From positions 1 through 6,464 of the forward strand of contig CAIYPH010000458.1 in NCBI GenBank assembly GCA_903928045.1: a stretch of DNA of 6,464 nucleotides. Reading direction: 5' to 3'. Made by a program: the position numbers and the translations under genes. Positions 1 to 6,464 of this stretch are shown one piece after another (position 1 is the first letter of the stretch; each line of letters opens with the position of its first letter). This DNA comes from an uncultured Rhodospirillales bacterium (GTDB lineage: Bacteria; Pseudomonadota; Alphaproteobacteria; Acetobacterales; Acetobacteraceae). The notes under the pieces are model-generated. The model did not search any database. It was given only the letters and a program-made list of their open reading frames with translations, and had not been told where the DNA came from.

Positions 1-82
1 CTGCCCCCTTGACCCCCGCCAGGTCCGTTGCGCGCCTTCGCGCGACGTGCCGAGCCCCTGGACCTCGACCATTTGAAGGAAT
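1..82. other. Non-coding left edge with a small hairpin
   Basis: No gene is supported here. AGGTCC (21-26) is mirrored by GGACCT (60-65), and inside it CGCGC (31-35) pairs with GCGCG (40-44) around a CTTC loop, so the stretch can fold into a nested stem. A TGA at 10-12 in the first frame could be the end of a gene lying to the left, but only three codons precede it. The segment GCCCCTGGACC...CCATTTG (about 54-75) loosely resembles the right-hand repeat with its hairpin 2 removed, so this may be a decayed mirror half of the neighbouring element. That reading is weak. Confidence 0.35.
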
Positions 83-154
83 GGTATGAAGTGAGAGAGG
101 GGGCCTGCTCCGTGGTTGCAACCACCGAGAAGGCCCCCTCTCTCACTTCATACC
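83..154. repeat. 72-nt near-perfect palindrome (hairpin 3, left copy)
   Basis: The arms 83-106 and 131-154 are perfect 24-base reverse complements; the left arm begins GGTATGAAGTGAGAG. The middle is also nearly palindromic: GTGGTTGCAACCAC (112-125) is self-complementary, and positions 108-110 pair with 127-129. Only 107/130 and 111/126 fail to pair, so 34 of 36 positions match. The sequence can form a very stable hairpin on either strand's RNA, or a cruciform in DNA. The core TGGTTGCAACCA (113-124) recurs exactly at 6453-6464. Confidence 0.9.
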
Positions 155-173
155 CTCTTAAACGGATGGGGGT

Positions 174-192
174 CTGGGGCCTCAGGCCCCAG
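174..192 (-). repeat. Hairpin 2 of the left repeat copy
   Basis: On the minus strand it reads CTGGGGCC-TGA-GGCCCCAG, an 8-bp perfect stem with a three-base TGA loop. The counterpart at 6386-6404 has the same length and loop. The two differ at three stem positions, and each change is matched by a compensating change on the other arm, which supports selection on pairing. Confidence 0.8.
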
Positions 193-198
193 CGGGGT

Positions 199-217
199 CC
201 AGGGGCAGCGCCCCTGG
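199..217 (-). repeat. Hairpin 1 of the left repeat copy
   Basis: On the minus strand it reads CCAGGGGC-GCT-GCCCCTGG, an 8-bp perfect stem with a three-base loop, about 33 nt past the pheA stop codon. It is the first stable stem that RNA polymerase would transcribe after pheA. It is followed by ACCCCG rather than a T-run, so any termination role is uncertain. The counterpart is at 6363-6377. Confidence 0.75.
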
Positions 218-250
218 CCTTCCTTCCTGGCTGCCCCGATCCCCTGGGGT

Positions 251-1111
251 TCAGTCGGCGGTGTCCTGGTCTTTGCGGAACTGGGCGGTGGGGTAGACGC
301 CGAGGATGCGGGTTTCGCGGGAGAAGAAGGTGAGTTCTTCGAGGGCGCGGCGGAGGGCGGGTTGTTCGGGGTGGCCTTCGACGTCGCAGAGGAATTGGGT
401 GGCGGAGAATTGGCCGCCGACCATGTAGCTTTCGAGTTTGGTCATATTGATGCCGTTGGTGGCGAAGCCTCCGAGGGCTTTGTAGAGCGCGGCGGGCACG
501 TTGCGCACGCGGAAGACGAAGGTGGTCATCAGCCCGGCTTCGTCGGGCCGCGAGGCGCGCGGCGTGCGGGAGAGCACGTAGAAGCGGGTGGTGTTGTGCG
601 CGGCGTCTTCGACGTTGTGGCGCAGGATTTCGAGGCCGAAGAGTTCGCCGGCGAGCGAGGAGGCGATGGCGCAGTCTTCGGGGTTGCCCCATTGGGCGAC
701 GAGTTCGGCGGAGCCGGCGGTATCGAGTTCGACGATGGGGGCGAGGTTGAGGTCTCGGAGGATGGTGCGCACCTGGCCGAGGGCGACGGGGTGGGAGTGG
801 GCGCGCTTGAGGCCTTCGATGGTGGCGCCTTTGAGGCCGAGGAGGCAGTGTTCGACGCGCTGGAAGGCTTCGCCGATGACGAAGAGGCCGGATTCGGGGA
901 GGAGGTGGTGCATGTCGGGCACCCGGCCTGCGAGGCTGTTCTCGATCGGCATCATCGCGAGCTCGGCGGCGCCGGAGCGGACGGCCTGCATGGCGAGTTC
1001 GAAGGTGTCGCAGGGCAGGGTTGTCCAGCCCGGATAGGCATTGCGGCAGGCGAGATCGGAGTAGGCCCCGGGCCTCCCCTGGAAGGAGATGGTGCGGCTT
1101 GCGTCGGGCAT
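251..1111 (-). CDS. pheA: Prephenate dehydratase, monofunctional, with C-terminal ACT domain
   Basis: This cytoplasmic enzyme decarboxylates and dehydrates prephenate to phenylpyruvate, the committed step to phenylalanine. The 286-residue protein has the normal length for a stand-alone dehydratase and carries no chorismate mutase domain. Visible family features are FQGRPGAYSDLA (about 10-21), PIENSLAG (55-62), HSHP (105-108) and the catalytic TTRF (174-177). An ACT domain (about 196-273) should sense phenylalanine. Its usual ESRP motif reads ESYM here (227-230), a variant I recall from alphaproteobacterial relatives. The ATG at 1111 gives the family's usual N-terminus (ISFQG at 8-12). A purine stretch (GGAAG, 1127-1123) lies upstream. 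The gene begins 17 nt after kdsB stops, which implies cotranscription. It is followed at once by the compound repeat. Confidence 0.95.
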   Translation of the reverse strand: MPDASRTISFQGRPGAYSDLACRNAYPGWTTLPCDTFELAMQAVRSGAAELAMMPIENSLAGRVPDMHHLLPESGLFVIGEAFQRVEHCLLGLKGATIEGLKRAHSHPVALGQVRTILRDLNLAPIVELDTAGSAELVAQWGNPEDCAIASSLAGELFGLEILRHNVEDAAHNTTRFYVLSRTPRASRPDEAGLMTTFVFRVRNVPAALYKALGGFATNGINMTKLESYMVGGQFSATQFLCDVEGHPEQPALRRALEELTFFSRETRILGVYPTAQFRKDQDTAD

Positions 1112-3438: not shown

Positions 3439-5247
3439 GTGCGTTTCCTGGCCGCTGCCCTGCTCGCGCTACTGTGCGCCCCCGCCTTGGCGCAAACCCC
3501 GGTGCACGGCATCTCGATGTCCGGCACGCTGCAACTGCCGGCCGGCTTCACGCACTTCCCCTACCTCAACCCCGATGCCCCCAAGGGCGGCGAAATCGCG
3601 CTCGGCACCGTCGGCACCTTCGATAGTTTCAACGGCTTCGTCATGCGCGGTGTCGCCGCCGGCGAAATTGGCCGCATCTACGACACGCTGCTGCGCGACT
3701 CCGCCGACGAAGCCTCCACCGCCTATGGCCACATCGCCCGCAGCCTGACGCTCGCCGCCGATCGCCGCGCCGTCACCTTCGAGCTGCGGCCTGAGGCGCG
3801 CTTCCATGACGGCCACCCCATCACCGCCGAGGATGTCGCCTGGACCTTCAACACGCTGCGCGAACAGGGGCGGCCGCAATACAAGCAGTACTATGCCGAT
3901 GTCACCGCGGTGACCGTCAACAGCCCCACCAGCGTCACCTTCAGCTTCCGCACCGCCGAGAACCGCGAGCTGCCGCTGATCCTCGGCCAGCTCGTCGTGC
4001 TGCCGAAGCACTGGTGGGCAGGGCGGGATTTCGCCCGCGCGCTCACTGAGGCGCCGCTCGGCTCCGGGCCCTATCGCCTCGAAAGCTTCGAGCTCGGCCG
4101 CTCCACCGTGATGGCCCGGGTGCCGGATTACTGGGCGCGCGACCTCGGAACCTCCAAAGGGATGTTCAACTTCGACCGTATCCGCACCGAATACTACCGC
4201 GACTCAACGGTGGCCATGCAGGCCTTCAAGGCCGGCAAGATCGACTTTCGCCGCGAGAACATCTCCAAGAACTGGGCGACCGCCTATGACTTCCCGGCGG
4301 TCGACAAGGGCCTGGTGAAGAAAGAAGTGTTCCGCCATCGCCTGCCCACTGGCATGCAGGGCTGGATGATGAACACCCGCCGCCCGGTCTTCGCCGACCC
4401 GCGCGTACGCCGCGCCATGGCCGAGGTGTTCGATTTCGAGTGGACCAACCGCAACCTCTTCTTCGGCGCCTATACCCGCACGCAAAGCTACTTCTCAAAC
4501 TCCCCGCTCGCCTCCTCCGGCCTGCCCGAGGGGGCCGAGAAGACGCTGCTGGAGCGCTATCGCGGCAAAGTCCCCGAGTCCGTCTTCACCGAGCCCTTCC
4601 GCCTGCCCGTCACCGACGGCTCCGGCAACAACCGCGACGGGCTGCGCGCCGCCCTCACGCTGCTCAAGCAGGCGGGCTGGGACGTCAAGGAACGCAAGCT
4701 GGTCGACGCCCAGGGCCGCCAGATGAGCTTCGAAATCCTGGTCGATGACCCCAGCTTCGAGCGCATCGCCACCCCCTACAGCCAATGGCTGCAACGCCTC
4801 GGCGCCGATGTGCGCGTGCGCACCGTCGATGCCGCGCAGTACCAGCGCCTCACCGACGCCTTCGATTTCGACATGACCATGATGGTCATCCCGCAATCCG
4901 AATTCCCGGGAAATGAGCAGCGCGAGTACTTCTCCTGCGACAGCGCCAAGGCCGATGGCAGCAACAACGTCGCCGGCGTGTGCAGCCCGGCGATCGACGC
5001 GCTGATCGACCTGGTGGTGAACGCGCCCGACCGCGACTCCCAGATCACCGCCACCCGCGCCCTCGATCGCGTGCTGCTGCACGGCTGGTACGCGGTGCCG
5101 AACTGGCATCTCGGCGCCATCTGGGGCGCCTTCTGGGATCGCTTCGGTTACCCGAAAACCCCGATCCGCACCGGCCTCGCCTTCGATACCTGGTGGGTCG
5201 ACCCCGCCCGCGCCGCGGCTACGGACGCCGCGCGCATGGCGAACTGA
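3439..5247 (+). CDS. yejA: Peptide ABC transporter periplasmic binding protein, YejA-like (SBP family 5)
   Basis: This secreted binding protein captures oligopeptides in the periplasm and delivers them to the Yej permease; in enterobacteria the Yej system also takes up microcin C-type peptides. From GTG 3439 the product is 602 residues, close to E. coli YejA at about 604. Residues 1-18 are a classic signal peptide: MRFL, a hydrophobic core, then cleavage after ALA and before QTP. The cysteine at 13 is preceded by leucine, so it is not a lipobox. Family landmarks are NPDAPKGGE (45-52), TFDSFN (60-65), [12 protein letters not shown] (316-327), FDFEWTNR (331-338) and DTWWVDP (583-589). An in-frame ATG at 3400 would add 13 residues before the signal peptide and lacks a good ribosome-binding site. 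The gene follows hisN by 55 nt, and its stop overlaps the yejB start by one base. Peptide specificity is inferred from family. Confidence 0.93.
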
Positions 5248-6320
5248 TGGCCGGATACCTCCTCCGCCGCCTGCTCCTCGTCATCCCGACCCTGCTCGGC
5301 ATCATCACTATCAACTTCGCCGTAGTGCAGTTCGCCCCGGGCGGCCCGGTCGAACAAATGATCGCCGAACTCAAGGGCAAGGGCGACAGCACCGCGCGGA
5401 TGACCGGCGGCGGCACCGAAGTCGCCGCCGCCGACCCCGGCTCCTACCGCGGCGCGCGCGGGCTGGAGCCCGAAATGGTGGCCGAAATCAAGCGCATGTT
5501 CGGCTTCGACAAGCCCGCGCTCACCCGCTACCTCGATATGCTCCGCGACTACGCGAGCTTCGACTTCGGCCGCAGCTTCTTCCGCGACCAGACCGTGCTC
5601 GGCCTGCTCGCGCAGAAAATGCCGGTCTCCATCTCGCTCGGCCTGTGGTCCACCCTGCTGGTCTACCTGGTCTCCATCCCCCTCGGCATCGCCAAAGCCG
5701 TCCGCGACGGCAGCCGCTTCGACGTGATGACCTCCGCCGCCGTGCTGGTCGGCTACGCCGTGCCGGGCTTCCTCTTCGCCATCCTCCTGGTCGTGCTCTT
5801 CGCCGGCGGCAGCTTCGTGCAGTGGTTCCCACTCCGCGGCCTCGCCAGCAGCGGCGCCGAAACCTGGCCCTGGCCGGCCCGCATCGCCGACTATCTCTGG
5901 CACATCGTCCTGCCCACCACCGCCCTCGTGGTCGGCGGCTTCGCCTCGCTCACCATGCTGACGAAAAACAGCTTCCTCGAGGAAATCCGCAAACACTACG
6001 TCACCACCGCCCGCGCCAAAGGCGCTTCCGAACGCCGCGTGCTCTACGGCCACGTCTTCCGCAACGCCATGCTCCTCGTCGTCGCGGGATTCCCCGCCGC
6101 CTTCATCGGAATCCTGTTCTCCTCCTCCCTCCTGGTCGAAATCGTCTTCTCGCTGGACGGCATCGGCCTCCTCGGCTTCGAATCCGCCATCCGCCGTGAC
6201 TACCCCGTGATGTTCGGAACCCTCTACATCTTCACCCTGCTCGGCCTCGTCATGCAGATCATCGGTGACCTCATGTACACCGTCGTCGACCCCCGCATCG
6301 ACTTCGAAAGCCGCTCATGA
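5247..6320 (+). CDS. yejB: Peptide ABC transporter inner-membrane permease, YejB-like
   Basis: This is one of the two membrane subunits of the Yej oligopeptide importer. The 357-residue protein is near the E. coli length of about 364. It has an N-terminal membrane segment (about 9-30), a periplasmic insert (about 31-125) with the YejB-type region [14 protein letters not shown] (77-90), then five more hydrophobic segments near 129-150, 163-187, 219-240, 273-298 and 320-345. The cytoplasmic loop 245-274 ([17 protein letters not shown] onward) is the EAA motif that docks onto the ATPase. ATG 5247 overlaps the yejA TGA as TGATG, implying translational coupling. The gene ends in ATGA, the usual form for coupling to yejE, but a structured repeat follows instead. 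Partners YejE and YejF are not in the window, so the importer is incomplete here. Confidence 0.94.
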
Positions 6321-6362
6321 GCCGATCCTGTGACGGGCGCGCCTGGGGGAAGGAAGGAAGGC

Positions 6363-6377
6363 GGGGGCTCCGCCCCT
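6363..6377 (+). repeat. Hairpin 1 of the right repeat copy
   Basis: GGGGC (6364-6368) pairs with GCCCC (6372-6376) around a TCC loop, and G6363 with T6377 can add a wobble pair. The stem is shorter than the left copy's hairpin 1 (8 bp), because its outer two positions no longer pair. No T-run follows. Confidence 0.65.
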
Positions 6378-6385
6378 CGACCCCG

Positions 6386-6404
6386 CTAAGGGCTGAGCCC
6401 TTAG
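6386..6404 (+). repeat. Hairpin 2 of the right repeat copy
   Basis: CTAAGGGC-TGA-GCCCTTAG forms a perfect 8-bp stem with the same TGA loop and 19-nt length as the left copy (192-174). Relative to that copy, two G-C pairs became A-T and one C-G pair became G-C, with both arms changed each time. Confidence 0.8.
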
Positions 6405-6464
6405 AACCCATTTGTCTAAGAGGGTTTGGTGGGAGGGAGGGGGCCGACGGGATGGTTGCAACCA

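Follow-up and report, generated by a model that had tools for sequence, protein, structure and literature searches.

Rhizobium intergenic mosaic elements, ERIC sequences and similar repeats are composite intergenic palindromes made of exchangeable modules, and intrinsic bidirectional terminators are GC-rich hairpins situated just past the stop codons between convergent genes. REP/BIME sequences are described in PMC3733652 as intergenic palindromes that are dispersed, lie downstream of coding regions and occur for the most part where the neighbouring genes are convergent or unidirectional. Two further sources describe template switching as a process that makes the arms of an inverted repeat alike and inverts the spacer between them (PMC8604942), and that can create and maintain hairpins (PMC8794818). 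Here, we analysed a structured repeat found at both ends of a DNA stretch of 6,464 nucleotides (called the window for simplicity) and searched for its relatives in other genomes.

The window carries genes for a prephenate dehydratase and a cytidylyltransferase on the minus strand and, on the plus strand, genes for a cytochrome c, an inositol-monophosphatase-family protein, a family-5 solute-binding protein and an ABC permease (Pfam assignments). We take the last of these to be yejB; in relatives, a second permease gene comes after it, which we take to be yejE. Among the loci compared, the one closest to the window, L001 in genome G001, is 92.5% identical over 2459 bases and comes from a MAG, uncultured Rhodospirillales bacterium Umea1p3_bin-407. 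According to the original prediction, minus-strand positions 227-83 and plus-strand positions 6352-6464 hold the same parts in the same order, and each part was indeed found there: GGAAGGAAGG, hairpin 1, ACCCCG, hairpin 2, a linker ending AAGAGGG, an arm ending GAGGGGGCC, and TGGTTGCAACCA. The minus-strand segment is two thirds of a compound inverted repeat of about 220 nt (window 229-1), the omitted part (82-1) being the mirror half, which is itself cut by the contig start. Of a second copy, on the plus strand, the window has only the first half (6350-6464), because the contig end falls in the centre of the palindrome. The two copies are the window's two longest inverted pairs (58 and 46 nt, each at 78%). 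The left copy folds with a z score of -10 relative to 200 shuffles; the right copy, whose second arm lies past the contig end, folds no better than shuffles (z = +0.29). At E <= 1, an Rfam scan of the window gave 12 matches; each was to a microRNA family, and none reached that family's gathering score. The position of the element at both contig ends (window 1 and 6464) is what is expected where an assembler halts at a dispersed palindrome. The features are listed below together with their evidence; L and R denote the two halves of the element, A1 is an alignment of 25 rows (copies in G001 loci) and R1 is a covariance model of 226 positions and 62 pairs.

1..229, minus strand: left copy, nearly complete, cut at the contig start (R1 match of 198.7 bits, model positions 1-205 of 226)
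218..227, minus strand: GGAAGGAAGG, outer foot of the L half (sequence; alignment A1)
199..217, minus strand: L-half hairpin H1, CCAGGGGCGCTGCCCCTGG (fold; helix 1, 96.0% of cells paired)
193..198, minus strand: ACCCCG spacer of the left copy (sequence)
174..192, minus strand: L-half hairpin H2, CTGGGGCCTGAGGCCCCAG (fold; helix 2, 97.1% paired)
83..154, minus strand: central long hairpin around TGGTTGCAACCA (113-124), its arms variable among copies (inverted repeat of 94% over 36 nt; helix 3)
1..82, minus strand: R half in mirror orientation, with linker, H2' with nested GCGCGCC-TTC hairpin, and part of H1' (R1 match to position 205)
251..1111, minus strand: prephenate dehydratase gene (Pfam PF00800), stop 21 nt before the left copy
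5247..6320, plus strand: ABC-transporter permease gene, yejB-like (Pfam PF00528), stop 29 nt before the right copy
6350..6464, plus strand: right copy, first half only, model positions 1-117 (R1 match of 101.8 bits)
6352..6361, plus strand: GGAAGGAAGG of the right copy (sequence)
6362..6379, plus strand: H1 of the right copy (sequence; alignment A1)
6380..6385, plus strand: ACCCCG spacer of the right copy (sequence)
6386..6404, plus strand: H2 of the right copy, CTAAGGGCTGAGCCCTTAG (sequence; fold)
6423..6464, plus strand: first arm of the central hairpin and TGGTTGCAACCA (6453-6464) of the right copy (direct repeat D6, 74% to 83-124)

The first DNA search gave matches in all eight related genomes, with at least 69 in G001 (40 of 118 candidates scored). 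Searched with R1 on both strands (E <= 0.01; 150 of 3010 first-look candidates scored), G001 yielded at least 145 matches, or 78 distinct places by hand count, a figure in which fragments at contig ends may enter a copy twice. The prediction that the shared parts go beyond chance GC-rich hairpins is thereby confirmed, since this many further copies exclude chance. Matches to R1 were obtained in 38 of the 49 genomes reached through the first DNA search, in all five genomes of G001's genus and, within its family, in at least 178 of the 299 genomes that were sampled (E <= 1e-6; seven candidates scored per genome). In the family of G048, an Azospirillum, 10 of 82 genomes matched, none better than 1.9e-22. 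All copy numbers per genome are lower bounds, and copies from other genera retain the same plan. Plasmid and phage carriage found no support, with a 35-nt match in one of 72,556 plasmid records and none in 50,697 phage records, and a search of the open-access literature returned no description of the family. The element family is real, large and well defined.

The element is about 220 nt long, or up to about 340 nt when its outer arms are counted, and its plan, with variants, is GGAAGGAAGG - H1 - ACCCCGC - H2 - GACCCGCATCCGTTTAAGAGG - central hairpin - CCTTCAAATGCATGAGGTCC - H2' - GGGGTC - H1' - CCTTCCTTCC. The central hairpin is centred on GGTTGCAACC, and the R half stands in mirror orientation with CCTTCCTTCC at its end, so that GGAAGGAAGG and CCTTCCTTCC form terminal inverted repeats of an element that lacks coding capacity, as in a MITE. 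Each copy joins two half classes, one L and one R: when the 40 nt next to the stem were compared, the halves were 80% alike in none of 71 copies, compared with 22% of randomly pooled halves, while likeness of at least 80% was seen in 49% of L-L pairs and 37% of R-R pairs. This test, like those of the outer arms, the central stem and the empty sites, was carried out on copies of 195-260 nt. We rejected the idea that L and R are kept different for the sake of local hairpin folding; in that comparison, made with stems, 0 of 34 copies were alike against 6.6 +- 2.1 for pooled halves, but shuffling R halves within genomes already gave 0.1. In the RNA fold of lowest energy, L is paired with R, and local pairs exceed L-R pairs in only four of 71 copies. 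A nested GCGCGCC-TTC-GCGCG hairpin in the loop of H2' is present in window 1-82 and in the R halves of four other loci (L119, L226, L231 and L238). One G001 copy (L138:4539-9230, contig C363) carries an insertion of about 4.4 kb with an IS1595-type transposase (Pfam DDE_Tnp_IS1595) in the centre of its palindrome, flanked by an apparent 10-bp duplication of GGTCGCAACC.

Neighbouring genes were assigned with our own gene caller, which recovered all six genes of the window. Among 93 element sites, 34 were convergent, 34 tandem and one divergent; the remaining 24, at contig edges, were left out of the context count. Element-free gaps of at least 50 nt in the same loci were convergent in 34, tandem in 206 and divergent in 137 cases (chi-square 85 versus the element sites). 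Elements thus lie between convergent or tandem genes at 68 of the 69 sites with both neighbours called. The median distance from stop codon to element is 21 nt, with 100 of 105 gene ends at -10 to 60 nt. Together with the R1 copy counts, these distances bear out the prediction of a numerous, dispersed family located after stop codons, and the further copies found by the covariance-model search in G001 and its relatives are placed non-randomly at gene ends. At tandem sites the L half came first in 21 cases and the R half in 11, which is not a convincing preference. Mirrored stop codons were considered and discarded: the two stops fell in the same arm column in 4 of 29 convergent pairs, which does not exceed the 10% seen among cross pairs. 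The two stop distances are correlated (rho 0.59), but the difference between them is no smaller than among shuffled pairs (0.13). A terminator scan gave no hit in either window copy, and the longest T run was three or shorter in 128 of 142 strands, i.e. most strands have no T/U tract of the kind expected of an intrinsic terminator.

Dispersed palindromes between convergent and unidirectional genes recall REPs (PMC3733652), and a REP/BIME-like identity had been proposed for the window copies. For the RAYT transposase that would mobilise such an element, we searched 15 draft genomes with Y1_Tnp (RAYT-type, PF01797). Twelve of them, eight of which are element-rich, had no match; three had one, two of these over the cut-off. 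The element-rich genomes G051 and G007 each carry a single weak match, that of G007 being over the cut-off. Inspection of the 25-row consensus by eye revealed no conserved GTAG or CGTC tag, and PMC3733652 states that CGTC repeats are missing in Acetobacteraceae. The length of about 220 nt also speaks against this assignment. A REP/BIME element in the strict sense is accordingly not supported, and a RAYT-driven family is largely refuted by the lack of a Y1_Tnp match in eight element-rich draft genomes; we regard it as very improbable.

In the 25 copies of A1, 93.7% of the cells were paired compared with 81.7% in shuffles, and the covariation score was 0.306 compared with 0.104; none of 500 shuffles reached either value, and shifting the partner columns abolished the pairing signal. 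The arm sequences of the central stem differ among copies yet change together. Over 71 copies, 1452 of its 1491 cells (97%) were Watson-Crick, 12 GU, 7 AC and 20 other, a flattering figure because the centre that maximises pairing was used. In the outer arms of tandem copies, read along the direction of transcription, GU was counted 76 times and AC 70 times (p 0.68). Selection at the RNA level should favour GU over AC as an intermediate; since GU is not clearly above AC, we read the pairing as upkeep at the level of DNA.

These counts bear on the proposal that the element is a 3'-UTR RNA, that is, an RNA element or terminator selected on the transcript alone and covarying by ordinary RNA compensation. 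Its placement after stop codons and the strong covariation are what such an element would display, but GU is as rare as AC both in the centre and in the tandem outer arms, and orthologous copies can be inverted (see below). We therefore consider transcript-only selection rather unlikely: the position agrees with a 3'-UTR RNA, whereas the pattern of pairing points to upkeep of the DNA.

Past the ends of the model, the flanks form inverted repeats that are specific to each copy. A score of at least 12 was reached by 55 of 66 copies, compared with 5.7% of cross-copy controls. The signal (63 copies) was 11.7 versus 6.2 at 0-30 nt from the element and 8.2 versus 6.3 at 30-60 nt, and none was present at 60-300 nt. 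Element-free tandem and divergent junctions had no flank-palindrome signal, and element-free convergent junctions had a slight excess (9.3 versus 8.3, p 0.009), as simple terminators might give. The outer arms extend into gene ends, where the coding parts are mirrored by the opposite flank, both on the stop side (own 11.0 versus cross 7.8, n=85) and on the start side (own 10.8 versus cross 7.2, n=16). The longest exact match between outer arms had a median of 7 nt and a maximum of 13 nt (66 copies).

Sequence pieces adjoining 25 of the 28 G001 copies served as queries against four genomes of the genus. Among 60 orthologous rows, 19 were empty, 7 occupied and 3 ambiguous, and 31 had no left-flank match, in some cases because contigs end there. 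The flank palindrome was higher at the occupied site than at its empty orthologue in 15 of 16 comparisons covering 10 sites, with one tie, which argues that the arms mostly arrive together with the element or later. Derivation of one arm from the ancestral host flank stood out in 2 of the 16 comparisons and 2 of the 10 sites (at L128 with one of four empty relatives only), and the flank-copy mean, 11.6, was barely above its null of 11.0. Three rows of L114, whose orthologous sites hold other hairpins, were dropped from the flank-palindrome and flank-copy comparisons. One of these sites (L251, G051 contig C40:7400-8660) carries another kind of palindromic element at the gene end; it has GGAAGGAAG / CTTCC ends and long runs of A and T, and may represent a second family. 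The copy at L128:5434-7552 (G001 contig C213) stands between a GTP1/OBG-family gene and an amino-acid-kinase gene that almost touch in four relatives, and the downstream gene seems extended by a few codons at its start.

The cassette was clearly inverted in place at two orthologous sites. For L228 and L149, the interior is 0.92 identical when inverted and 0.82 when read directly, between flanks of 91 and 95%, and the alignment is better direct in the flanks and better inverted inside. For L051 and L047, the corresponding interior values are 0.86 and 0.76, and the flanking genes are 95% and 92% identical. In the set of 18 occupied pairs, besides L149/L228, three lean to inversion, three have the same orientation and 11 favour neither clearly; L234/L034 in this set is probably not a true copy pair, and L123/L235 contains N. 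Replacement of the content at fixed sites, an idea that we had entertained, is partly superseded by the in-place inversion at L149/L228, while L123/L235, L135/L233 and others fit neither clearly. The loop of the right copy of the window is the inverse of the G001 loop; the arms there are long enough to mislead an assembler.

Perfect stems, mirrored flanks and inversions might all be assembly artefacts of metagenome bins, as most loci come from MAGs, many copies lie at contig ends and the window itself stops in the centre of a palindrome. Yet copies with mirrored arms are present in records labelled as cultured strains, namely Roseomonas ponticola (L051), Roseomonas sp. CECT 9278 (L022) and AR75 (L048), and exact outer-arm matches of at most 13 nt are too short to mislead an assembler, which makes an assembly error an unlikely cause of the inversions. 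The artefact explanation is the least probable of those considered here.

The gap that holds the right copy of the window was compared across relatives. In 30 of the 38 relatives in which both genes were found, yejB and yejE are less than 100 bases apart. Four of the other eight gaps contain a full element (L022, L047, L048 and L051) and one a partial element (L025), and the right copy of the window occupies the same place. In all five loci, the stretch past the yejB stop can be aligned (scores 16-27) to the start region of yejE read as its reverse complement. The own arm pair was best or near best in three of the five, namely L022, L048 and, as a borderline case, L025, which fits the start of L022 better (21) than its own (17). 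In L047 and L051, the better match is to the opposite arm of the other locus (27 and 22), which would follow if the cassette together with its inner arms has flipped between them. The statement that the element caps both transcription units thus describes the window itself, but the yejB-yejE gap is short in most of the relatives compared, so that the right copy may break up an operon instead of closing it. In G001 (L150:3875-4099; L230:8011-8230; L144), a yejB-like gene is followed by an element and then by pyruvate kinase (Pfam PK) instead of yejE. The outer arms of that copy do not match (score 8), and its pyruvate-kinase side fits its G051 neighbour (16); the arrangement may reflect recombination between copies or misassembly.

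The main rival explanation, and one already contained in the original prediction, is a MITE. The element would then be what is left of a DNA transposon, non-autonomous and with the L and R halves as its ends; a putative transposase would move it, and the palindromes would be recognition sites and byproducts. Fresh copies at sites empty in relatives (the 19 of 60 rows above) are in line with it, as are the GGAAGGAAGG/CCTTCCTTCC ends, the consistent pairing of one L with one R half (0 of 71 alike), as transposon ends would have, and the use of the same gap between two permease genes in several species. A direct target duplication, in contrast, was recognised by eye in none of the 19 empty rows, where the relatives are only 67-90% identical; the outer flanks are inverted rather than direct repeats; and the central arms differ freely among copies. 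The empty sites fit the MITE proposal, and we hold it to be less probable than our preferred reading, though the strongest competitor.

In our preferred reading, to which we give an even chance, the element is a quasi-palindrome of gene-end DNA that template switching keeps self-complementary, and probably serves as a bidirectional terminator. Polymerase template switching between the arms, or hairpin recombination, would copy one arm onto the other; such copying would keep the centre paired, mirror the flanks and flip what lies between them. Judging from its position and structure, the element may be retained because its stacked hairpins stop or trim transcription from either side, as a two-way terminator or a 3'-end guard. 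Template switching would account for the paired change without wobble, the mirrored flanks and the inversion, and its marks are present, i.e. arms that are alike with no sign of wobble intermediates and spacer inversion in two clear cases. What counts against it is that L and R remain different within each copy, although template switching over the whole palindrome should make them alike.

A further-reaching proposal is that of a self-mirroring mobile element with no transposase of its own, in which template switching, on arrival or later, makes the adjoining gene ends or starts inverted copies of one another, the centre evolves in paired steps only and the whole cassette flips in place between its mirrored arms; we put it forward tentatively, as possible rather than probable. 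If true, it would mean a repeat family shaped by replication and not by a dedicated enzyme, from which the host obtains an exchangeable two-way terminator. Stems that pair perfectly and covary are commonly regarded as proof that an RNA is under selection. The present natural family, which reaches tens of copies per genome in several Acetobacteraceae genomes, combines paired change without wobble with flipped orthologous copies, and a comparison of close strains at the element would allow the share of template switching in compensatory change to be measured. The family would also be a class of gene-end DNA able to mirror and rewrite neighbouring coding ends. In practical terms, these elements break assemblies, as in the window, which ends inside one, and matched outer arms could be used to check which flanks belong together.

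In kind, as a set of intergenic palindromic repeats, the family is ordinary; its mirrored arms, its paired change without wobble and its in-place inversion are unusual. With Rhizobium mosaic elements and ERIC it shares the composite intergenic palindrome, a likeness at the level of general description; an L/R rule, mirrored flanks and inversion are not known from those elements. Like intrinsic bidirectional terminators, it places GC-rich hairpins right after the stops between convergent genes; unlike intrinsic terminators, it is much larger, mostly lacks T runs longer than three and forms a repeat family with gain and turnover of copies at orthologous gene ends. As in REP/BIME (PMC3733652), copies are dispersed, intergenic, palindromic and located at gene 3' ends. 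REP/BIME units, however, measure 20-40 bp, whereas the element is a compound structure of about 220 nt that has neither a conserved tag nor, in most genomes searched, a RAYT-type match, and that combines a variable yet perfectly paired centre with flank-mirroring outer arms and in-place inversion. A parallel in behaviour is quasipalindrome mutation, in which arms are made alike and the spacer is inverted (PMC8604942); the yeast spacer inversions described there changed 2-5 bp, while the element inverts about 170-200 nt, by a process presumed to be of this type.
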